NCBI GenBank assembly: GCA_022453515.1
Contig: JAJNNY010000065.1
Location: 1 to 64,000, forward strand
Reading direction: 5' to 3'
DNA from: Astrocystis sublimbata
Taxonomy: Eukaryota; Ascomycota; Sordariomycetes; Xylariales; Xylariaceae
Length of the DNA stretch: 64,000 nt
Made by a program: the position numbers and the translations under genes. The notes beneath the pieces are model-generated. The model did not search any database. It was not told where the DNA came from and saw only the letters and a program-made list of their open reading frames with translations. Shown here in pieces: positions 1-19,731 of the stretch (position 1 is its first letter; every line of letters begins with the position of its first letter).

Positions 1-240
1 CCATCCGGGGCTGACAAGATCACCGTACCGTATGCTCTCGTGGCATCGAAGGAGGAGACGCCGGAAACGATCAAGGACTTCGAGAGCAGATTGAAGGTAC
101 CTCACCACGTCGAGACTTTCAGCGACCAAGTCCACGGCTTCATGGCAGCTCGTGCAAATCTTTCTGATCCACGCGTCAAGGAGGAGTATGCTCGCGGCTA
201 CCAAGTCGTTCTCGACTTCCTGGGTAAACATTGGGACTGA
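1..240 (+). CDS. Dienelactone hydrolase family protein, 3' end (left-arm copy)
   Basis: This is the last 79 codons of a fungal dienelactone hydrolase (alpha/beta hydrolase), cut by the window start. It is identical to the C-terminal part of the complete copy at 11236-12214 on the other strand. The stretch contains the DQVHGFMAAR segment, whose His is the expected third member of the Cys-Asp-His triad of the family. It ends in a DFLGKHWD tail and a TGA at 238-240. The nucleophile Cys and the amino-terminal exons lie upstream of the window if the left arm continues. It is convergent with the SMP-30-like gene to its right. See the right-arm copy for the complete description. Confidence 0.88.
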   Translation, partial: PSGADKITVPYALVASKEETPETIKDFESRLKVPHHVETFSDQVHGFMAARANLSDPRVKEEYARGYQVVLDFLGKHWD

Positions 241-823
241 TATCAAAGAGTCTGACGACAAGTGTAGATTATATATTCGAGGCTTTTGGCAGGCTTTGCA
301 TCCTTTTATGTTGTGTTCTCCCTGTTTAATTGTCTACGTAGTCTGATATTTTGCACTATATACTACCGTATTTCGTCTTTGCCTCAGAAACCAAAGGTGC
401 TTTTCACGAAAATCTTGCAAGATGGCCGTGCCCCATGCTCACCCGAAGGGCCTTTGTCCAGGCAATGATACCACCTCGTATCTTGCATAAAAAGACTATT
501 TAAGAGTGTTTGAAATAAGTCACGAACGTTCCCACATATAGTCATATGTAGCATACGTATCTTTTCATGCGAGTGCAACGGTAAATATGCGGTCCAGAAT
601 AATTACTTTGCCACACCACCTCTAGCATACCTAGGCCATAATATTACACTCGTGCAAGAATAACTTAATTACTACAATCAATACTCATGTTTCAGAAATG
701 AATGCCTATCACTTGTAAACGTATATCAAGCGTCTTCAAAGATGTTTACTCCCTGTTAATGCGCACATCATAATCATGATTAATTACCCTGTGCTGTTAT
801 GTTGTCTAAGCTATCCCAGGGAT
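241..823. other. Intergenic, convergent 3' ends (left arm)
   Basis: This is AT-rich DNA between the 3' ends of the DLH and SMP-30-like genes. Only short chance frames occur (up to 64 codons). It is identical in reverse complement to 10653-11235. I see no RNA gene or mobile element. Confidence 0.7.
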
Positions 824-2019
824 CTAAAGTTCATCCTCGGGTGGAAAAGAAAACCCTCTCGTGTCGACAGCAATTATCCTCCCCCCTTCGACGAATGTCC
901 CATTGATAGGGTTTAGAAGTGCACCTCCAGTCACGATGTACAGGGTCTCCTTGTCACCCGGCAGCTTCCCAAATGCAAGGCCCACCGGTCCAGCAAGCAC
1001 AGCTTCGTCTGATGCACCGAGTACGGTGACGGGGTTTCCTTGAGGAGGAATGGCAATAAGTTGGTTGTTCGCGTTTGAGGCTGTCCATATGATGTTGCTG
1101 TCGTCCGGGCCGAATGTTGAACCGTCCAGGAAGACAGCACGGACATGTTGAACTAGCTCAATCTTGGTCCCTGGGACCGCATGGCCGTCGTCTGTCATTG
1201 CGAAATGATAGAAGTTCCCGAGAAATCCGTTGTTGTAGTAGATATACCCATTATGGACATGAGCACCGTTGATGCCAAAATCCATAGATGCCCATGCTGG
1301 GGGAGCCATCGTTTTGTCGCGTAGAACTTCTTCGTATGTACCACTTGAAACGTCAACTTGCCATATAATTCCAGCTTTGGTATCAGACACAAGATAATTA
1401 TCAGAGTGGTCTGGAATTGGTTCGATATGGACGCAAAAGCTGGCATTGGTCATGTGAACGCGCTCTGCGACAATAGGATGGTCTATTCCATTTGTCAGGT
1501 CTAGCTCGTACACCGAGTGAGTACCAGGCACACCGGCTCCTATAGTTGTTTGATTGCCCCCTACAAACACGAAAACATCGGGATTTTGTGTTCCTGTTAT
1601 GGACGCTATCAGACTAATATAGTCCAGGTCCACCACTCTTGTCAATGTTGGTGTTTCAGTGGTTGCTCCTGATACATGCCACTGATAATTGTTAGTTAGA
1701 CGTTGAAAGTCACTCGTCCAAAGGCGATAAAAGGATATTCGACATTACGTACTATAGATGCAGTAGGTGCAATCGTCGTTACAAGGAGATCGCCGTTCGA
1801 TGCCACATAGATGCTTTGCATGTAGAATGGGAAGTCAAACTGACAGAGCCGACGATACGGCAGCGAAGCTGGCTCCCCTGCTCGGTGTGGTTTGAGGGAC
1901 AAAGATAGTTGCCGAAATGGTTCGAGAAGCGATGAGAATACAGAAAATTGAACACTAGATGCGACAGATGCGAGTATCAAGAGGACACTCAGGTAGCCTC
2001 TCATGATAGATGAATGCAT
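824..2019 (-). CDS. Secreted SMP-30/gluconolactonase-like protein (left-arm copy)
   Basis: This is a two-exon gene, complement(join(824..1681,1753..2019)), encoding 374 aa. The 71 nt intron has a GTACGT donor, a CTAAC branch site and a CAG acceptor; joining is in phase 0 and gives TASI-WHVS. The amino terminus is a hydrophobic signal peptide, so the product should be secreted. The body resembles the fungal SMP-30/gluconolactonase/LRE-like beta-propeller group, with NGAHVHNGYIYYNNG and IWTASNANNQ segments. In this fold, acidic and Asn residues bind a metal and act on lactones or related esters. The real substrate is unknown. It is divergent from the laccase, sharing a 464 bp promoter region, and both products carry signal peptides. 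It is a perfect duplicate of 9457-10652. An alternative start six codons in (MRGYLS) is possible. Confidence 0.85.
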
Positions 2020-2483
2020 GTTGTTGAAGGCAGCTGAAATACGTCAATATGATAATTACTTGTGTTGTCTTGCATAGACCACACTTTCCTTTTCTCAGGC
2101 CCATCATCATAAAGAACATTTGTCTCGCCCTCGGAGCCCTTTATTCCAAACGTAGAACATTGTAGCAGTCTTAATGTTGACGTCTATCACTCGGCGTCGG
2201 ATATTTCCAATCCCATTTCAGTAGTGGTTCGGAGAGTTCATAATTTCCCCATTTGTTAACACACTCGACGAAGGACCCAATCAGGTACGGAGCTAGTAAA
2301 CCCAACCTTGGCAGATCAGCGGCCGGACCTTTGAGAACATTTTTATTCCGAAGCTCATGATTATTGAATAATCTGCGACTTGGCTGGTCCGCGTAATTTC
2401 TCTGATTTTATTAATGTGCGGAAATTGGTAGCATCGAACTCTCATAACCCAACATTAGCAGCCTACAGCACCCAGTCGCCGCT
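2020..2483. promoter_or_regulatory. Bidirectional promoter region, SMP-30-like gene / laccase (left arm)
   Basis: These 464 bp separate two divergent start codons, so both genes must be driven from here. A CCAAT box-like CCAATC occurs near 2278. CGG triplets, the half-site type of Zn2Cys6 factors, occur near 2192-2200 and 2321-2326. No spacing was clear enough to name a factor. The region is duplicated exactly at 8993-9456. Confidence 0.55.
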
Positions 2484-5067
2484 ATGAAGCATATCAAGTG
2501 CTTTTTATTACTTCTGGCTCTGAATAGCCTGTGGCTTGTCAGTTCCGCCTCAACCTACGAACAAGAATCCAGGCATGTCCCGCGCAAAGGAAACTGGAAC
2601 ATTCATCAAACAAGTATTTCCAATCATGGAAACACACACCACAGTTATTTATCTGTATGGTTTCAGCCAATGAGGGAATTCTTTTGTTCCATTTTTGGGC
2701 TTAACACCAATACACCATTTGCGTTGAAGGACTCCATCCAACGACCAGGCCAGCATCCGATTGAGCCGATTGAGCCTTCTGATTCTTTTGGTCTATGCGA
2801 GAATTCACCAACTTCGCGCAATTTCTGGGGCAAATATAACACAAGCACAAATTACTACCTCGAGACACCCGATACGGGTGAGACAGTCGAGGTCTGGCTT
2901 TCTGCTGAAGAGAGCATCTGTAACCAGGATGGTTACGCAAGACCATGCCTCACATTCAATGGCACCATGCCTGGGCCGGCCATCATTGCGAACTGGGGAG
3001 ACTATGTCAAAGTTCATGTCACAAATAACTTACGATCAAACGGTACAATAACATCTTACGTCCAACACTGATCACCACCAGCATGGTCTGTCACTCTAGA
3101 TGGCCTAGACTAATTGGAAGATTTTAGGAACATCGGTGCACTGGCACGGGCTTCGCATGCTAAACAGCGTTCAGTACGATGGGGTTCCTGGTGTAACGCA
3201 GTGTGCTATCCCACCTGGCGAGACGCTCACGTACAAGTTCAGAGCCACACAATACGGCACGAGCTGGGTAAGACTCCCAACACGTCTCATGCGTGTGGAT
3301 CGCTCTCTTGAATCACCTTTGAGACAATCGCTAGTATCGTAGCTAATAGCCGCTTATAGTATCACAGCCATTTCTCGTTACAATATGCCGAGGGTCTATA
3401 CGGTCCATTAGTAATTCATGGCCCTGCTACAGCTGACTACGATGAGGATCTGGGCCCATTGGTCCTTCAAGACTGGTCACATGTACCAATCTTCACTGCC
3501 TGGAGCGACTCACAAGAATGGGGCATGACATATTCTTTGACAAACACCTTGATCAACGGCACGAATACGTTCGACTGCACCGCCCATGACCCCGACCCGA
3601 AGTACCTCGGTGGCGGGAGGAAGTTCGAGACCACATTCCAGCAGGGCAAAAGATACCTTATCCGCCTTGTCAACGTCGCTATCGATAGCCAATTCCAATT
3701 CAGTATCGACGGCCACTCTCTAACAGTTATCGCTGCCGACTTTGTGCCGATCCAACCATACAAAACTGAAAGCGTGGTCCTCAATTCTGCTCAGCGCTAT
3801 GATATCGTAGTTGAGGCAAATGCAGAACCTGGAGATTACTGGATTCGTGGCGGGTAAGTTTTCACCGCCGATGACAGAGAGCAGTCATTTCGAAAGTACT
3901 CGGACCCTTAAGATGACAGCACCAGTTGTCTACGATTGATATACATATATGAATTATGGTACTGACTGTTGCTGTCACAGCTGGGTACATAGCGGCATAT
4001 GCCAGGGTGTGGCAAACGATCACCCCGAAGACATGACGGGCATCGTGCGCTACAATAGTTGGAGCAAACTTGAGCCATCCAGTGCTTCTACAGTTTCCCC
4101 TCCGATCACCTGTATCGACGAGTCACGGCACGATCTCGTACCCTGTTTGAAGTACGACGTTACTAATGTGGCTGGTATGACAGTTGAGGAGCTTAATTAT
4201 CGCTTCACACACACGGGGATGTTGAAATGGACCATTAATACCACTGACCTGTTGATAGATTGGGCAAATCCAGGTATGTCTCTCAACAAGCGCGTACGTA
4301 TGTCTGTTAACTAACTGCCTATGAAGTAAGTTGACCAAGTTGTCCGTTACTATTGGTTAGTATAGAGGGGTATAGTAACAACACACCGAAGACTCTCCAG
4401 CAGATCTTAAACAACGATACATCGTTCCCGAATAACTATAACGTCGTACAAGTCGAAGTAAGTGTTTGAGCAATTATGAAAATGGGCTGTGATTGGACAC
4501 TGATAGCTCTGTACCGCAAGAAACAGTCAGATATTTCAGATGAATGGACGGTTCTTGTAATAGAGAATGTCGCAGCATCTTTCTTTGGGGGGTAAGAGCT
4601 ATTAGTTTCTTCAGACTTCACTCATACTCCCTTGTCCATATTCTACACCATCCTTTGAGTATACTTGCCTCAAATCAAACCTGCTCACGAGTGTTTTGAC
4701 TTGCAGGATTGCCCATCCAATTCACCTCCATGGACACGACTTCTGGATTCTAGCGCAAGAAGAATTTAGCAAGTGGGACGGCACAGCAAGATCATTCCAG
4801 CTTGAGGACGCACCCCGGCGCGATACTGCAATCTTACCAAAGCACGGATATCTAGCAATTGCATTCAGGCTTGACAACCCCGGCGCATGGCTATGCCATT
4901 GTCATATAGCGTGGCATGCCAGTATGGGTCTGGCTTTTGAATTTATGGAGAATCGGGGATCGATCTCGATGGGCAAGTCGGACAAGGACGCGTTGGACAA
5001 GACCTGCGCAACTTGGTCAGAATGGAATCGAGATGCTCCGTGGCCACAGGAGGATTCGGGCATTTAA
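2484..5067 (+). CDS. Ascomycete-type laccase (multicopper oxidase), left-arm copy
   Basis: This seven-exon gene is join(2484..3042,3128..3267,3360..3853,3981..4273,4366..4457,4527..4591,4707..5067), about 667 aa. The acceptor at 4527 could instead be 4521, which adds two residues. Exons 1-21 or so encode a signal peptide, followed by an unusually long linker before the first cupredoxin domain. All four copper signatures are present: [19 protein letters not shown] and HCHIAWH. The position ten residues after the copper Cys is Leu, as in high-potential laccases. The protein ends in DSGI, matching the mature carboxyl plug of ascomycete laccases, with no further propeptide. It should oxidise phenols using O2 outside the cell and may couple aromatic metabolites oxidatively. 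The amino-terminal motif reads [11 protein letters not shown], where family members usually have RxCW, so one disulfide Cys appears lost. Its 3' end faces the palindrome axis. Confidence 0.93.
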
Positions 5068-6408
5068 AGACGCATATTGTTAACTTAATGAATTCAATAT
5101 ACTAAATTAAAACAAATTAAAACTTAATGAAATAAATACAAAATAGCTTGAAGCTAATCTGTGTTCTCCGGGCTGCGCCATGGTTGAAGCGGTGGCAGTC
5201 GTATTGGGGCTGTGGCAATGATGATGGAAGTGGTTGTTTGGAAGGTTCACTTGTGAGGGAGGAAATGACTGCTCCATGGGTGGGCAGGCATTTTCATCTG
5301 GCGTGCGTGGCCTATTTGATAAGGTTCGGTCGGCGAGCTCAAAATACCTAGTAGTTGAAATAGTCGTATTACGAGGCAGTATTACGAGACAATATAACGA
5401 TTGATTCTGCCGCTCCGGTAGGATGGGACTTAGTCACGCCGATGGCCGGCCATGTGAGGTAGTCTAGTACCTACCTAGGTACCTGGTAGGTAGTGTTTTA
5501 TAGGTTAGGCCAGCCGTCTTTTACACCTTTCACTCATGTGGTAAGAATAACAACTGTGCATATTACAATCGATTCTAATGTGTACTTATAACTAACTACC
5601 TAATGTGCAAGGAAAGGGCAAGTGTCTTGTCTCGCGCCAGACAACTTAATAAGGATTAAATCACTATATTAATATATATATATATATTAAAATAACTTAA
5701 TATTTATTTATAAAAATTAAAGTATTAAATAGAAATTTTAAAATTTCTATTTAATCTTTATTTTATAAATAAATATTAAGTTATTTTAATATATATATAT
5801 ATATTAATATAGTGATTTAATCCTTATTAAGTTGTCTGGCGCGAGACAAGACACTTGCCCTTTCCTTGCACATTAGGTAGTTAGTTATAAGTACACATTA
5901 GAATCGATTGTAATATGCACAGTTGTTATTCTTACCACATGAGTGAAAGGTGTAAAAGACGGCTGGCCTAACCTATAAAACACTACCTACCAGGTACCTA
6001 GGTAGGTACTAGACTACCTCACATGGCCGGCCATCGGCGTGACTAAGTCCCATCCTACCGGAGCGGCAGAATCAATCGTTATATTGTCTCGTAATACTGC
6101 CTCGTAATACGACTATTTCAACTACTAGGTATTTTGAGCTCGCCGACCGAACCTTATCAAATAGGCCACGCACGCCAGATGAAAATGCCTGCCCACCCAT
6201 GGAGCAGTCATTTCCTCCCTCACAAGTGAACCTTCCAAACAACCACTTCCATCATCATTGCCACAGCCCCAATACGACTGCCACCGCTTCAACCATGGCG
6301 CAGCCCGGAGAACACAGATTAGCTTCAAGCTATTTTGTATTTATTTCATTAAGTTTTAATTTGTTTTAATTTAGTATATTGAATTCATTAAGTTAACAAT
6401 ATGCGTCT
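5068..6408. other. Palindrome centre between convergent laccase 3' ends
   Basis: This 1.34 kb stretch is itself a near-perfect inverted repeat. Outer parts carry laccase 3' flanks and ACCTACCTAGGTACCT-type motifs at 5469-5492 and mirrored near 5985-6008. The inner 170 bp (about 5655-5825) is extremely AT-rich, with TA dinucleotide runs on both sides. The innermost 32 bp (5724-5755) are a perfect palindrome around 5739/5740. A 67-codon open frame at 5148-5351 (mirrored 6125-6328) has no recognisable features and is not called. No gene or RNA was found. Confidence 0.85.
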
Positions 6409-8992
6409 TTAAATGCCCGAATCCTCCTGTGGCCACGGAGCATCTCGATTCCATTCTGACCAAGTTGCGCAGGTCTTGTCCAACGCGTCCTTGTCCGACT
6501 TGCCCATCGAGATCGATCCCCGATTCTCCATAAATTCAAAAGCCAGACCCATACTGGCATGCCACGCTATATGACAATGGCATAGCCATGCGCCGGGGTT
6601 GTCAAGCCTGAATGCAATTGCTAGATATCCGTGCTTTGGTAAGATTGCAGTATCGCGCCGGGGTGCGTCCTCAAGCTGGAATGATCTTGCTGTGCCGTCC
6701 CACTTGCTAAATTCTTCTTGCGCTAGAATCCAGAAGTCGTGTCCATGGAGGTGAATTGGATGGGCAATCCTGCAAGTCAAAACACTCGTGAGCAGGTTTG
6801 ATTTGAGGCAAGTATACTCAAAGGATGGTGTAGAATATGGACAAGGGAGTATGAGTGAAGTCTGAAGAAACTAATAGCTCTTACCCCCCAAAGAAAGATG
6901 CTGCGACATTCTCTATTACAAGAACCGTCCATTCATCTGAAATATCTGACTGTTTCTTGCGGTACAGAGCTATCAGTGTCCAATCACAGCCCATTTTCAT
7001 AATTGCTCAAACACTTACTTCGACTTGTACGACGTTATAGTTATTCGGGAACGATGTATCGTTGTTTAAGATCTGCTGGAGAGTCTTCGGTGTGTTGTTA
7101 CTATACCCCTCTATACTAACCAATAGTAACGGACAACTTGGTCAACTTACTTCATAGGCAGTTAGTTAACAGACATACGTACGCGCTTGTTGAGAGACAT
7201 ACCTGGATTTGCCCAATCTATCAACAGGTCAGTGGTATTAATGGTCCATTTCAACATCCCCGTGTGTGTGAAGCGATAATTAAGCTCCTCAACTGTCATA
7301 CCAGCCACATTAGTAACGTCGTACTTCAAACAGGGTACGAGATCGTGCCGTGACTCGTCGATACAGGTGATCGGAGGGGAAACTGTAGAAGCACTGGATG
7401 GCTCAAGTTTGCTCCAACTATTGTAGCGCACGATGCCCGTCATGTCTTCGGGGTGATCGTTTGCCACACCCTGGCATATGCCGCTATGTACCCAGCTGTG
7501 ACAGCAACAGTCAGTACCATAATTCATATATGTATATCAATCGTAGACAACTGGTGCTGTCATCTTAAGGGTCCGAGTACTTTCGAAATGACTGCTCTCT
7601 GTCATCGGCGGTGAAAACTTACCCGCCACGAATCCAGTAATCTCCAGGTTCTGCATTTGCCTCAACTACGATATCATAGCGCTGAGCAGAATTGAGGACC
7701 ACGCTTTCAGTTTTGTATGGTTGGATCGGCACAAAGTCGGCAGCGATAACTGTTAGAGAGTGGCCGTCGATACTGAATTGGAATTGGCTATCGATAGCGA
7801 CGTTGACAAGGCGGATAAGGTATCTTTTGCCCTGCTGGAATGTGGTCTCGAACTTCCTCCCGCCACCGAGGTACTTCGGGTCGGGGTCATGGGCGGTGCA
7901 GTCGAACGTATTCGTGCCGTTGATCAAGGTGTTTGTCAAAGAATATGTCATGCCCCATTCTTGTGAGTCGCTCCAGGCAGTGAAGATTGGTACATGTGAC
8001 CAGTCTTGAAGGACCAATGGGCCCAGATCCTCATCGTAGTCAGCTGTAGCAGGGCCATGAATTACTAATGGACCGTATAGACCCTCGGCATATTGTAACG
8101 AGAAATGGCTGTGATACTATAAGCGGCTATTAGCTACGATACTAGCGATTGTCTCAAAGGTGATTCAAGAGAGCGATCCACACGCATGAGACGTGTTGGG
8201 AGTCTTACCCAGCTCGTGCCGTATTGTGTGGCTCTGAACTTGTACGTGAGCGTCTCGCCAGGTGGGATAGCACACTGCGTTACACCAGGAACCCCATCGT
8301 ACTGAACGCTGTTTAGCATGCGAAGCCCGTGCCAGTGCACCGATGTTCCTAAAATCTTCCAATTAGTCTAGGCCATCTAGAGTGACAGACCATGCTGGTG
8401 GTGATCAGTGTTGGACGTAAGATGTTATTGTACCGTTTGATCGTAAGTTATTTGTGACATGAACTTTGACATAGTCTCCCCAGTTCGCAATGATGGCCGG
8501 CCCAGGCATGGTGCCATTGAATGTGAGGCATGGTCTTGCGTAACCATCCTGGTTACAGATGCTCTCTTCAGCAGAAAGCCAGACCTCGACTGTCTCACCC
8601 GTATCGGGTGTCTCGAGGTAGTAATTTGTGCTTGTGTTATATTTGCCCCAGAAATTGCGCGAAGTTGGTGAATTCTCGCATAGACCAAAAGAATCAGAAG
8701 GCTCAATCGGCTCAATCGGATGCTGGCCTGGTCGTTGGATGGAGTCCTTCAACGCAAATGGTGTATTGGTGTTAAGCCCAAAAATGGAACAAAAGAATTC
8801 CCTCATTGGCTGAAACCATACAGATAAATAACTGTGGTGTGTGTTTCCATGATTGGAAATACTTGTTTGATGAATGTTCCAGTTTCCTTTGCGCGGGACA
8901 TGCCTGGATTCTTGTTCGTAGGTTGAGGCGGAACTGACAAGCCACAGGCTATTCAGAGCCAGAAGTAATAAAAAGCACTTGATATGCTTCAT
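6409..8992 (-). CDS. Ascomycete-type laccase (multicopper oxidase), right-arm copy
   Basis: This is the mirror copy of the laccase at 2484-5067: complement(join(6409..6769,6885..6949,7019..7110,7203..7495,7623..8116,8209..8348,8434..8992)). The predicted protein is identical in all exons, including the copper motifs, the Leu axial position, the RNFW variant and the DSGI end. Introns are identical too. Because the duplicate is exact, dosage rather than divergence would be the immediate effect if both copies are real. Transcription runs toward the other laccase across the palindrome axis, so read-through from either gene would give self-complementary RNA. Confidence 0.92.
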
Positions 8993-9456
8993 AGCGGCGA
9001 CTGGGTGCTGTAGGCTGCTAATGTTGGGTTATGAGAGTTCGATGCTACCAATTTCCGCACATTAATAAAATCAGAGAAATTACGCGGACCAGCCAAGTCG
9101 CAGATTATTCAATAATCATGAGCTTCGGAATAAAAATGTTCTCAAAGGTCCGGCCGCTGATCTGCCAAGGTTGGGTTTACTAGCTCCGTACCTGATTGGG
9201 TCCTTCGTCGAGTGTGTTAACAAATGGGGAAATTATGAACTCTCCGAACCACTACTGAAATGGGATTGGAAATATCCGACGCCGAGTGATAGACGTCAAC
9301 ATTAAGACTGCTACAATGTTCTACGTTTGGAATAAAGGGCTCCGAGGGCGAGACAAATGTTCTTTATGATGATGGGCCTGAGAAAAGGAAAGTGTGGTCT
9401 ATGCAAGACAACACAAGTAATTATCATATTGACGTATTTCAGCTGCCTTCAACAAC
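8993..9456. promoter_or_regulatory. Bidirectional promoter region, laccase / SMP-30-like gene (right arm)
   Basis: This is the exact reverse complement of 2020-2483, between divergent start codons at 8992 and 9457. It carries the same CCAAT-type box and CGG triplets. No transcription factor site could be assigned. Confidence 0.55.
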
Positions 9457-10652
9457 ATGCATTCATCTATCATGAGAGGCTACCTGAGTGTCCTCTTGAT
9501 ACTCGCATCTGTCGCATCTAGTGTTCAATTTTCTGTATTCTCATCGCTTCTCGAACCATTTCGGCAACTATCTTTGTCCCTCAAACCACACCGAGCAGGG
9601 GAGCCAGCTTCGCTGCCGTATCGTCGGCTCTGTCAGTTTGACTTCCCATTCTACATGCAAAGCATCTATGTGGCATCGAACGGCGATCTCCTTGTAACGA
9701 CGATTGCACCTACTGCATCTATAGTACGTAATGTCGAATATCCTTTTATCGCCTTTGGACGAGTGACTTTCAACGTCTAACTAACAATTATCAGTGGCAT
9801 GTATCAGGAGCAACCACTGAAACACCAACATTGACAAGAGTGGTGGACCTGGACTATATTAGTCTGATAGCGTCCATAACAGGAACACAAAATCCCGATG
9901 TTTTCGTGTTTGTAGGGGGCAATCAAACAACTATAGGAGCCGGTGTGCCTGGTACTCACTCGGTGTACGAGCTAGACCTGACAAATGGAATAGACCATCC
10001 TATTGTCGCAGAGCGCGTTCACATGACCAATGCCAGCTTTTGCGTCCATATCGAACCAATTCCAGACCACTCTGATAATTATCTTGTGTCTGATACCAAA
10101 GCTGGAATTATATGGCAAGTTGACGTTTCAAGTGGTACATACGAAGAAGTTCTACGCGACAAAACGATGGCTCCCCCAGCATGGGCATCTATGGATTTTG
10201 GCATCAACGGTGCTCATGTCCATAATGGGTATATCTACTACAACAACGGATTTCTCGGGAACTTCTATCATTTCGCAATGACAGACGACGGCCATGCGGT
10301 CCCAGGGACCAAGATTGAGCTAGTTCAACATGTCCGTGCTGTCTTCCTGGACGGTTCAACATTCGGCCCGGACGACAGCAACATCATATGGACAGCCTCA
10401 AACGCGAACAACCAACTTATTGCCATTCCTCCTCAAGGAAACCCCGTCACCGTACTCGGTGCATCAGACGAAGCTGTGCTTGCTGGACCGGTGGGCCTTG
10501 CATTTGGGAAGCTGCCGGGTGACAAGGAGACCCTGTACATCGTGACTGGAGGTGCACTTCTAAACCCTATCAATGGGACATTCGTCGAAGGGGGGAGGAT
10601 AATTGCTGTCGACACGAGAGGGTTTTCTTTTCCACCCGAGGATGAACTTTAG
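9457..10652 (+). CDS. Secreted SMP-30/gluconolactonase-like protein (right-arm copy)
   Basis: The gene is join(9457..9723,9795..10652), 374 aa, identical to the left-arm copy. The start at 9457 gives a signal peptide with a hydrophobic core (LSVLLILASVASS). The rest is a predicted beta-propeller of the SMP-30/LRE group. Fungal members of this group occur in or near secondary-metabolite clusters, where they can open or close lactones; a specific reaction is not inferable here. Its 3' end converges with DLH at 11236, separated by 583 bp. Confidence 0.85.
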
Positions 10653-11235
10653 ATCCCTGGGATAGCTTAGACAACATAACAGCACAGGGTAATTAATCAT
10701 GATTATGATGTGCGCATTAACAGGGAGTAAACATCTTTGAAGACGCTTGATATACGTTTACAAGTGATAGGCATTCATTTCTGAAACATGAGTATTGATT
10801 GTAGTAATTAAGTTATTCTTGCACGAGTGTAATATTATGGCCTAGGTATGCTAGAGGTGGTGTGGCAAAGTAATTATTCTGGACCGCATATTTACCGTTG
10901 CACTCGCATGAAAAGATACGTATGCTACATATGACTATATGTGGGAACGTTCGTGACTTATTTCAAACACTCTTAAATAGTCTTTTTATGCAAGATACGA
11001 GGTGGTATCATTGCCTGGACAAAGGCCCTTCGGGTGAGCATGGGGCACGGCCATCTTGCAAGATTTTCGTGAAAAGCACCTTTGGTTTCTGAGGCAAAGA
11101 CGAAATACGGTAGTATATAGTGCAAAATATCAGACTACGTAGACAATTAAACAGGGAGAACACAACATAAAAGGATGCAAAGCCTGCCAAAAGCCTCGAA
11201 TATATAATCTACACTTGTCGTCAGACTCTTTGATA
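10653..11235. other. Intergenic, convergent 3' ends (right arm)
   Basis: This is the exact mirror of 241-823: AT-rich sequence with only short chance frames. No gene, RNA or repeat other than the palindrome itself was seen. Confidence 0.7.
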
Positions 11236-12214
11236 TCAGTCCCAATGTTTACCCAGGAAGTCGAGAACGACTTGGTAGCCGCGAGCATACTCCTCCTTGA
11301 CGCGTGGATCAGAAAGATTTGCACGAGCTGCCATGAAGCCGTGGACTTGGTCGCTGAAAGTCTCGACGTGGTGAGGTACCTTCAATCTGCTCTCGAAGTC
11401 CTTGATCGTTTCCGGCGTCTCCTCCTTCGATGCCACGAGAGCATACGGTACGGTGATCTTGTCAGCCCCGGATGGGTCAACCATAGCAGGATGGCAGGCA
11501 ACTGCGACGGCGAACGGGTTCGATGATGCTTGTGATGTAACCAGCTCCGCCACTTTTCCGCCCCAACAATACTAGTCGTGGGTTAGTTGATATTAAGCAG
11601 CATGATAAATGGAAATAGGCTGAAACGTACCCCGATAAGTCCCCAGGAGCGAATGGACGTGTTCGACTCCTGAACAGCTTTGACATACTCGGGCAAGGCA
11701 GCGGCGACATCGAATGGGGAGTTTTTGCCAAACCATTCACCCAGCTTCTGCTGTTTCTCCTCACTATCAGGCGGATACCTATCGTATCAATCTTAGCTAT
11801 CTGCTCGGAACAGAAAAACGAGACACCGAAAGGAATAGCTTAGTATTTTACCATTCTACTGGGCAAGGGTGTCCACAGAACCAGTCTGGCATAAAAACCT
11901 TGAATTGCTGCCCATTGATGCCTGTGGCCAAGATATCGGCTCCTTGAATGGTCTGATCGAAATAGCCGAAGATGTCAAATACGGAAATAAGACCTTTAGG
12001 TGCATCAGGTGCGCCAGTGACGTCTTGACATGAGTGATAGTGTCGCAAGTTAGCCAAGTCACCAAGTGTCCAACACTTGGTCATGGGAATGCTTACAGGT
12101 CTTTTTGCCCCCCAGCTGGGTATAGGAGCCCTTAGGGGTATACCCTTCGGAGACCACTGGTGGGATGTTGCAACAAGCGGCGTTGTGGCCGTGTGAAGCA
12201 GGCATAGAAGACAT
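11236..12214 (-). CDS. Dienelactone hydrolase family protein (right-arm copy, complete)
   Basis: This four-exon gene is complement(join(11236..11571,11631..11778,11852..12023,12097..12214)), 257 aa, the usual length for fungal DLH proteins. Introns of 59-73 nt have GTRNGT- or GTAAAA-type donors and all junctions are in phase. The nucleophile motif YCWGG opens the last exon and the catalytic His lies in QVHGF. Where relatives usually carry the Asp of the triad (KDE-type sequence), this protein reads SKEET, so the acid may be Glu. The amino-terminal half has FDIFGYFDQTIQGAD, typical of this fungal branch, which hydrolyses enol lactones or related esters in the cytosol. It lies beside the SMP-30-like and laccase genes. 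The palindrome is proven only up to 11475, inside exon 4. Exons 1-3 have no visible left-arm partner because the window starts there. Confidence 0.9.
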
Positions 12215-17040: not shown

Positions 17041-19731
17041 ATGTTCGCCTCAACTCCTTTGTGGTGGCAACAGTACAGCCAGCCGTACCGTCCACAACAG
17101 AATATTCAGTGTTTATCGGGACATGTTCACCAGAACAACCGACCTATAGTTGCCTTTGTGTTTTGCAGAACCAATGCGGACGGAGAGCTCGAACTGCTTC
17201 TCGAACATCGATCTACCCTCGTAGAATACCCCAGGAGTTGGGGCTTTATCGATGGAGACTATGATCCACGCACCGAGGAGCCAGAAAACGCAGCCTATCG
17301 AGCGGCTAGAAACAAGTTTGGAATTAACCGAAACGCTATCAATATCCTCGGCCTCATCTATAAGCACGACCACGGCGGCCCCAAATACCTAACCTACAGC
17401 TACATATTCGCAGAGTATAACGCCCCAGCGCCCTCCCCTCTAACGAACATGTCTACTAAATCGCAATGGTTTCGTACTTCCCTTCCTATAGAAGTTATGC
17501 CCTTCCTACGAGAGGATTTCACAATGATTAGTCACATTTTGAGAACTGAAATTATTCATAGATTGCAAAGAGGTCGAGAAAGTGCTATCATGGTTCCACG
17601 TTTGGGTTCTGTTGAATCTACTCAGCAGTCCGAGACTACCTCTCAGCAATCTGACAGCGGGATTGGGAGCGGGATTGGGAGCGAGATTGATCGCCCCAAC
17701 CTTCAAGCCCCGGTCATACTGGACTTTTTTGGTACAGACCTACTATCTTTTACTAATTTTACTGTCTCTCGCACCCGTGAAGCACAGAACAACCGGCACC
17801 AAAGCTCAGCTGCGGCAGCGTCTAGTGCCGGCCAACGTCCAACCGGTCAAGTTCAGAGTTCTGGTGCAAATCAGGGCCAAAGCTCCACCAACACAACGTC
17901 TAATGGTCAGGTGCATTACCCCAATCTTGGCCCATCAACAGACAGGACTAAAAACATCGTCAACACACTGACTAAAAAGCAGCGGGCTGAGCTTGCAGCC
18001 CTAGAGCTACAGAAGGATGCCGCTGCGGCATCAGCCTCTCAAGCTGAGAGCAAAGCTGAGAAAGGAGGACACAAACAAGAGACCAAATCATTATTCTCCA
18101 AATTCTTCAATTACATGCCCTTTAAAGGCGGCAAGCAAGATATTGTGCCAAAAGACAAAGGACCCGAAGGCAAGGATCCCAAGGACAAAGTTGAAGGTCA
18201 AGCTGCTGGCAACAAGCCCAACGACGAGGCTACTAGCAACAAGCCCAACGACGAGGCTGCTGGTAATAAGCCAAGCAACGGCCAAACTAAGGAAAGCTCT
18301 CTATCCCCTGAACCAAGGGGTTGGGGGTTGTGGAATTGGAACCCACTGTGGAATACTCTCCCTACTGGCGGTGACAGTACTAAACCACTTCCTGGCACCA
18401 AAAGACGCAGATCTGCTGAAACTGATGAGAAAGCAACCAGCCCGGCTAAAAAGAAGAAAGTCGAGCAGGAAAAGCAGTCTGAGCAGGAAAAGCAGCCAGA
18501 GCAGGAAAAGCAGTCTGAGCAGGAAAAGCAGCCAGAGCAGGAAAAGCAGTCTGAGCAGGAAAAGCAGCCTGAGCAACAGAAGCAGCCAGAGCAACAGAAG
18601 CCGCCGTCCAAAAGCCCAACACGAATTCCTCCTCAGCCTAGCGAGGCGGGACCGTCAACATTACCTCCGATGGACAACAACCACCGCACTCCGCCCTCAG
18701 GCCAGGGCACCAAGAGAGCTACCCCTGTTGACAAGGACCAGCCAGCAAGCCAGCCTACCAAAAAAGTCAGAATTGCAGTTCCAGGAGAGCCAGCACCTAG
18801 CAAAGCGTCGCAGCCGACAAAGGTTACATCAGGGCAGGCTTTGAAATCATGGGCTATGAATGTAGACGACATGGAGTCCCATTATTCTGGAATTCAGACG
18901 ACTCACCAGGCCCAGACTCAGAATCACCAAGCTCAGACTCACCAAGTTCAGACTCACCAGGTTCAGACCCATCAAACTCAGACCCATCAAACTCAGACCC
19001 ATCAGACTCAGACTCATCAGACTCAGACTCATCCGACTCAGACTCATCCGACTCAGACTCATCCGACTCAGACTCGCCAGACTCAGACTCACCAGACTCA
19101 GACTGTGAATCAAGCCCCGATACCTGCACCAGAGGCCAAGAAGAGCGTTCAGCACCCAACCGTAGCAGAGGCTCCCCCGGCTACTAGCCTCTTTAATACC
19201 AATCCCGCTCAGCCCAATGTTCCGAAGGTATCCCTCTTCGCCGACTACTCTCAAACGGCCCCCGGAGCTGCCGTTTCCGCCCCCGGGTTTTTGGCGACGT
19301 CGTCTGGAACCCAGGCTGGAATGCAAACATCATCTCTGTTTGGTAACCGGTCTCAATCTATGCAACAGCAGTCAGGGTCTTGGTGGCAGCAGACGTCCAA
19401 CTCTGCGAACCAGCCGCCGCCGCCGCCGCCGCCGCCGGCGCAGGTCGCACGCACACAAGACCAGTTCCGCGCGATTCTACGAAGTCCCCGAACTGCACCT
19501 CTTCCCGGGCCGCCAAAGTCTGCTCCCTTTCCGCCACCGCCGCCGCCGCCGCCGGCGGACTTCGCACGCATACGAGACCAGTCCCGCGCGATTGCACGAG
19601 GTCCCCGAACCGCACCTCTTCCCGAGGATATTCGTACGCCTGTTTTCTCGAGCGTGCCTCACCCGACGCCTATGAGCCCCTACTTCTTCGGTAGTCGCCG
19701 TGTGGGATCTGACTACTCCCTTTCGTCGTAG
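17041..19731 (+). CDS. Degenerate Nudix-domain protein with long repeat-rich, SLFG-containing tail
   Basis: This is a single-exon gene encoding 896 aa. The start at 17041 (CAAAATGTTC) is preferred over 16738, because the extra 101 residues look like translated leader. Residues about 33-185 resemble a Nudix fold (VAFVFCRTNADGELELLLEHR, PRSWGFIDGDYD). The box core reads RAARNKFGI instead of REUxEExGU, so all three metal-binding Glu of the core are missing and hydrolase activity is unlikely. The tail is disordered. It has an EQEKQ(S/P) repeat at residues about 475-520, a QTHQT-type repeat at about 620-690, SLFN/SLFA/SLFG motifs at about 717-770, and two poly-Pro tracts each followed by DQ(F/S)RAI...PRTAPLP. 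Basic KRRR- and KKKK-type patches could be nuclear signals. SLFG-type motifs recall FG nucleoporins, but this is only a resemblance. I cannot name the gene. Confidence 0.75.
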   Translation: MFASTPLWWQQYSQPYRPQQNIQCLSGHVHQNNRPIVAFVFCRTNADGELELLLEHRSTLVEYPRSWGFIDGDYDPRTEEPENAAYRAARNKFGINRNAINILGLIYKHDHGGPKYLTYSYIFAEYNAPAPSPLTNMSTKSQWFRTSLPIEVMPFLREDFTMISHILRTEIIHRLQRGRESAIMVPRLGSVESTQQSETTSQQSDSGIGSGIGSEIDRPNLQAPVILDFFGTDLLSFTNFTVSRTREAQNNRHQSSAAAASSAGQRPTGQVQSSGANQGQSSTNTTSNGQVHYPNLGPSTDRTKNIVNTLTKKQRAELAALELQKDAAAASASQAESKAEKGGHKQETKSLFSKFFNYMPFKGGKQDIVPKDKGPEGKDPKDKVEGQAAGNKPNDEATSNKPNDEAAGNKPSNGQTKESSLSPEPRGWGLWNWNPLWNTLPTGGDSTKPLPGTKRRRSAETDEKATSPAKKKKVEQEKQSEQEKQPEQEKQSEQEKQPEQEKQSEQEKQPEQQKQPEQQKPPSKSPTRIPPQPSEAGPSTLPPMDNNHRTPPSGQGTKRATPVDKDQPASQPTKKVRIAVPGEPAPSKASQPTKVTSGQALKSWAMNVDDMESHYSGIQTTHQAQTQNHQAQTHQVQTHQVQTHQTQTHQTQTHQTQTHQTQTHPTQTHPTQTHPTQTRQTQTHQTQTVNQAPIPAPEAKKSVQHPTVAEAPPATSLFNTNPAQPNVPKVSLFADYSQTAPGAAVSAPGFLATSSGTQAGMQTSSLFGNRSQSMQQQSGSWWQQTSNSANQPPPPPPPPAQVARTQDQFRAILRSPRTAPLPGPPKSAPFPPPPPPPPADFARIRDQSRAIARGPRTAPLPEDIRTPVFSSVPHPTPMSPYFFGSRRVGSDYSLSS
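18464..18602 (+). repeat. 18-bp coding tandem repeat (EQEKQS/EQEKQP)
   Basis: About seven to eight copies of an 18 bp unit alternate between TCT (Ser) and CCA/CCT (Pro) at the sixth codon. The last two copies use CAACAG (EQQKQP). The repeat keeps the reading frame of the Nudix-like gene. Confidence 0.9.
18900..19106 (+). repeat. 15-bp coding tandem repeat (QTHQT/QTHPT)
   Basis: The unit ACTCAGACTCATCAG and close variants is repeated about 13 times, encoding a Gln/Thr/His repeat (THQTQ, THPTQ). The 15 bp period keeps frame. The other strand reads Ser/Leu/Met-rich, and the +1 frame reads Ser/Asp-rich, both artefacts of the repeat. Confidence 0.9.
19411..19622 (+). repeat. Duplicated poly-Pro plus PRTAPLP module
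   Basis: Two copies of a roughly 90 bp module lie about 120 bp apart. Each begins with a CCG-rich poly-proline tract (19411-19440 and 19531-19555) and continues into a DQxRAI..R.PRTAPLP segment. The copies differ at several codons, so the duplication is not brand new. Confidence 0.85.

Follow-up and report, generated by a model that had tools for sequence, protein, structure and literature searches.

Does the Astrocystis sublimbata genome carry a giant palindromic gene cluster at the locus examined here, or was the sequence folded back on itself on its way into the assembly? The stretch analysed, hereafter the window, is the first 64,000 bases of contig JAJNNY010000065.1 (in our numbering G000:C152:1-64000), and the element in question is an inverted repeat that fills positions 1-11475 and duplicates laccase-like and lactonase-like genes. 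The assembly comprises 42,594,959 bases in 189 contigs (378 ends), and all comparisons were made on assembled contig sequence. Our results indicate that the repeat, like similar structures elsewhere in the assembly, very probably reflects long-read fold-back chimeras formed at AT (adenine-thymine)-rich inverted repeats and retained at contig ends. That it is an assembly artefact of one kind or the other, chimeric-read or purely computational, is close to certain, and the giant palindrome is almost certainly absent from the fungus and no real biological feature.

An inverted repeat flush with the contig end

BLAST comparison of the window with itself returned a single long inverted match, 1-11475 against 11475-1, with 99.95% identity over 11,478 columns, no mismatches and five gap openings, which is far above chance level. 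The near-perfect, spacer-free palindrome of at least 11.5 kb described in an earlier note on this sequence was thereby recovered: the axis lies between 5739 and 5740, the innermost 16 bases on each side are perfectly paired, giving a perfect self-complementary core of 32 bp, and there is no spacer. The same note called the arms identical wherever compared. In our alignment the left arm pairs without a single difference over its outer 5715 bases, and three single-base indels follow at 5716, 5718 and 5723, 17-24 bp from the centre.

The position of the repeat on its contig proved informative. Contig C152 is 199,747 bp long and starts with the first base of the window, a coincidence that the earlier note had itself named as evidence against a real palindrome; the note's statement that the left arm exits the window was mistaken, as the contig has no sequence beyond that base. 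Contig base 1 pairs with 11475, and the inverted copy is thus flush with the contig end. The segment 10900-12100 occurs in full at a single place in the assembly, in C152; the portion of it that ends at 11475 has one further occurrence, which is the left arm. Full-identity matches to the arm piece 4000-5600 were likewise restricted to the two arms of C152, the 53 other matches being pieces of dispersed repeats with 68-97% identity. A single outer flank is present for this palindrome, the left arm stopping at base 1, and the assembly search yielded no second contig with the C152 arm or an outer junction, although a second flank may be missing from the assembly.

Within the arms, 5156-5670 and its mirror hold pieces of dispersed repeats, with matches of 68-97% identity at dozens of sites in the genome, which we take to resemble decayed repeats of the repeat-induced point mutation (RIP) type. 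A telomere at the contig end was considered and rejected, there being no run of at least two TTAGGG units in the window; runs of at least three were absent from twenty 10-kb contig pieces, and runs of at least two from sixty terminal 300-bp contig pieces.

Terminal inverted copies at other contig ends

We examined whether other contigs end in the same way. Among contigs C1-C18, each read over its first 10 kb, C2 opens with a flush palindrome of about 7 kb (1-7062). In addition, 300 bp were fetched from 60 contig ends and 60-mers of 36 of them were searched against the assembly, the other 24 ends being excluded as AT-rich, low-complexity or belonging to small contigs. An inverted copy of the terminus was present on the same contig for 11 of the 36 probed ends, a proportion that is not a rate for all 378 ends. 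Six came from the first set of 18 probes (C168, C57, C179, C135, C67 and C35) and five from the second set of 18 (C120 and the right ends of C1, C13, C103 and C106). Measured between outer ends, the shortest span was 3.0 kb (C57) and the longest 38.8 kb (C13), a spread that would be expected if the spans depended on read length.

Some probes also had matches on other contigs, namely C112/C163, C146/C138, C113/C141/C58, C1/C56, C13/C88 and C5/C153. The termini of C113, C146 and C1 recur among C141, C138, C56 and C58, on both strands in C141 and C138; these are perhaps further redundant or folded ends. The inverted form of a C13 60-mer (8001) is found at C88:14252; the starts of these contigs look as though they overlap by about 22 kb and were left unmerged.

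Turning points of the fold-backs

Fifteen axes were examined, those of C152, C2, the 11 probed fold-back ends, C34 and C163; for fold-backs other than C152 and C2, the comparison covered the terminal 60-mer and a stretch of 601-851 bp at the axis. All 15 axes were AT-rich, with a GC (guanine-cytosine) fraction of 0-0.23 within 60 bp, a composition matched by about 0.4% of 20,000 random 120-mers drawn from 242,525 bases. In the 601-851 bp around the axes, the arms were mostly near-identical away from the centre and diverged close to it, at times across hundreds of columns rich in indels, as in C35 (69 gap openings and 52 mismatches across 796 columns), and the axis of C135 has an unpaired centre. 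This clustering of differences near the axis, which in C152 includes all of them, is as if only fold-back reads had covered the centre: many normal reads would have corrected the arms during polishing, and chimeric reads alone would have corrected the centre.

The axes also bear on a computational origin, in which neither a palindromic molecule nor a palindromic read existed and an AT-rich self-complementary overlap led the assembler by itself to link a read with its reverse complement, likewise producing an artefact. The axes are indeed AT-rich and partly self-complementary, and in two contig pairs, C163 with C112 and C67 with C34, the termini fall at the same base, as if a read end were shared. 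Against this, the perfect self-complementary core of C152 is just those 32 bp, shorter than the overlaps normally demanded of long reads, and the widely varying spans fit read ends better. We consider an assembler-only join unlikely.

The AT-rich tract at the axis of C152

The tract at the C152 axis led to two other contigs. Bases 5665-5738 match C73:11-82 at 97% and C49 at 90% on both strands, with no other contig matching among the 40 of 63 candidates scored. C49 (24,803 bp) is itself a fold-back, its first 300 bases recurring inverted at 12.1-12.4 kb. The first 1.4 kb of C73 (18,618 bp) matches C49 at 99.8% on both sides of the C49 turn, and the two contigs are identical in their final 500 bases. 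The comparison of C73 with C49 was made piecewise, with offsets that differ by a few bases along the contig, and in those pieces C49 appears to be C73 plus a fold-back arm of 6.2 kb. Taken together, these matches suggest that a single AT-rich tract is where the assembly broke, leaving one fold-back from each side, C152 and C49. On this sequence comparison C152 would adjoin C73/C49 in the genome.

The tract is also predicted to form a DNA hairpin. A 110-nt tract of C73 folds at -16.3 kcal/mol compared with -9.7 for shuffled versions (z -3.8, with 0 of 200 as good), and the position of the window's axis in C73 falls in the 3-nt loop of the predicted hairpin.

Such a structure raises the question of whether the DNA was already palindromic in the culture. 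AT-rich inverted repeats, some of them within dispersed repeats, might act as fragile sites in vivo, whose broken ends would be hairpin-capped and copied by fold-back synthesis into inverted dimers in the mycelium. Palindromic molecules would then exist in some nuclei and would not be the reference structure. The AT-rich axes, the hairpin predicted at the axis and the fold-backs that seem to approach a single tract from either side, C152 and C49, agree with hairpin-capping, but amplification, library preparation or base calling can yield the same signature, as described in PMC12870357 and PMC6218980, the number of loci better fits a library-wide process, and nothing locates the process in living cells. 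We regard hairpin-capped culture DNA as very improbable, and assign an equally small chance to AT-rich inverted repeats as the fragile sites behind it. If the fragile-site explanation were true, the fold-backs would record true palindromic molecules at many loci.

Folded and unfolded contigs

Pairs of contigs that share sequence at a fold point bear on the question of a real palindrome. C34 (31,514 bp) and C67 (712,586 bp) have the same starting 60-mer and the same fold-back terminus but different centres. Where the arm ends on its inner side they are identical over a compared piece of 589 bp, about 420 bp of it being flank. C35 and C29 are identical over 601 bp at the inner end of the arm, the fold being demonstrated for C35 alone. 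Over the pieces compared, C112 carries the C163 arm, continues about 37 bp beyond the axis and goes on at the point where C163 reverses. C112 is thus the sequence across the C163 fold point without the fold.

The remaining explanation is that the chromosome holds a real giant gene-cluster palindrome and that the assembly broke at its outer boundary. The near-identical arms and the spacer-free centre would suit such a palindrome, and a graph break at the arm boundary would also give a flush contig end. However, the same event would be required at a dozen unrelated loci, with each arm ending at a contig end. Twins of a real palindrome broken at its boundary should include its second flank; the C67/C34 and C35/C29 pairs instead show the same flank at the inner end of the arm, with no second flank, and therefore speak against it. 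For C49 and C163 there are unfolded versions, C73 as far as the turn and C112 across it, and for C152 no second contig holding the arm or its outer junction was found in the assembly. A real palindrome broken at the boundary was accordingly rejected as a candidate, with only a minute probability left to it.

Origin of the fold-back

The possibility raised in the earlier note that the assembly folded back on itself is supported by the flush contig end, the inverted copies at 11 of the 36 probed ends and at C2, and the AT-rich axes. Nothing found supports the note's other suggestion, that a palindrome of a biosynthetic cluster arose here recently or is being actively conserved.

Several observations weigh against long-read fold-back chimeras as the explanation. 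No palindrome was seen in 17 of the 18 contigs read to 10 kb, and 25 of the 36 probed ends had no inverted copy on their own contig. Interior control 60-mers gave one same-contig inverted copy in 18, on C9 (67,950 bp), where a single 60-mer occurs in +, -, + order with turns near 20.7 kb and 41.6 kb; both turning points are palindromic, so C9 is a zig-zag contig with two fold-back turns. Some arm differences lie away from the centre in C2, C179, C67 and C103. A flush contig end could also arise from a real palindrome longer than the reads, and a physical fragile site would likewise be compatible with fold-backs on either side of one hairpin. The proposed adjacency of C152 and C73/C49 depends on a 72-bp AT-rich match, the only candidate found in another contig for unfolded sequence at the C152 fold point, and the first 40 bases of C73 match the tract in reverse, so that unique C152 sequence is not reached. 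Finally, a PacBio HiFi sample contained virtually no fold-back reads, according to PMC12870357. As a separate observation, the 60-mer of C9 is present in C60 and C62 too.

Long-read fold-back chimeras, our preferred explanation, would arise as follows. Followed leftwards, the true contig would pass the dienelactone hydrolase gene, then the lactonase-like and the laccase-like gene, before entering the AT-rich tract at about 5740. There the strand, or a read made from it, may have folded onto itself at a short AT-rich inverted repeat and been copied backwards, yielding a long palindromic read. The assembler would have placed this read outermost on the contig, which would thereby have gained a spurious mirror image reaching as far as the read did. 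The strand snap-back and a long-read platform as the origin are what we infer from the contigs; our literature search found no description of how this assembly was sequenced, the one listed paper naming the species being taxonomic, and a search for self-priming fold-backs at AT-rich sites in libraries gave a single paper, on fragile sites. Genomes of Xylariales have been sequenced in a JGI project.

Comparable reads have been reported. In PMC12870357, long-read fold-back artefacts are described in several library types, simple repeats are enriched between the fold-back halves and some fold-backs recur at the same place. As in those reads, the second half of the present repeat maps onto the first on the opposite strand, and there is often little between the halves; unlike them, the structure is seen here in a finished assembly and its axes are AT-rich. 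PMC6218980 describes artificial palindromes that arise after whole-genome amplification, and possible ones from a missed SMRTbell adapter, and the harm they do to assemblies. The structures described here resemble these palindromic chimeric reads in being long artificial palindromes that damage an assembly, but nothing seen here points to amplified DNA or a missed adapter. Genuine palindromes, such as those of primate Y chromosomes, have highly identical inverted arms, as here, and are expected to show doubled read depth (PMC6218980). In C152, by contrast, one arm stops at the contig end and the assembly search gave no second flank. Genuine chromosomal palindromes stand between two unique flanks.

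Genes and other features of the window

Table 1 Coordinates of the inverted repeat and of the genes in its arms
Feature	Position	Strand	Remarks
Left arm	1-5739	-	Fold-back copy of 5740-11475, reaching the contig end; most likely not real sequence here
Right arm	5740-11475	+	Genuine locus; no boundary, continues into 11476 and beyond
AT-rich axis tract	5665-5811	.	GC 0.05 within about 60 bp of the axis; contains every arm difference
Multicopper oxidase (laccase-like) gene	6409-9028	-	Mirrored at 2448-5067
Lactonase-like gene	9433-10652	+	Mirrored at 824-2043; homologue named SMP-30/gluconolactonase-like
Dienelactone hydrolase-family open reading frame	11236-11571	-	Only 11236-11475 mirrored (1-240)

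The duplicated gene content (Table 1) was only partly as the earlier note had it. Of its three duplicated genes, the multicopper oxidase and lactonase-like genes are wholly mirrored, while the left copy of the dienelactone hydrolase amounts to about 240 bp of the open reading frame (ORF), truncated at contig base 1. The multicopper oxidase gene was read as ORFs 8405-9028, 7619-8116, 7162-7536 and 6409-6870, and the three of these that were scanned contained the Pfam domains Cu-oxidase_3, Cu-oxidase and Cu-oxidase_2. Six homologues were found for the lactonase-like gene, one of them carrying the name given in the table and one, from Astrocystis sublimbata, being 100% identical over 93% of the query; the start of the gene resembles a signal peptide by eye, and a Pfam scan of one of its ORFs gave no match. 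Further along the window, low-complexity KQPEQEKQ-like and TQTHQTQTH-like runs lie at 18198-19624 in a 997-aa ORF with a weak NUDIX match.

Significance

The mirrored 5.7 kb adds a false second copy of the laccase-like and lactonase-like genes and a false gene fragment to the draft genome. Another 12 contig ends, the 11 found by probing and that of C2, also carry a terminal inverted copy, and the largest span is about 39 kb. Such ends should be checked and trimmed before the assembly is used for gene-family counts, cluster predictions or synteny, and looking for AT-rich, hairpin-like turns at contig ends would be an easy way to screen other fungal genomes with AT-rich tracts for this fault.

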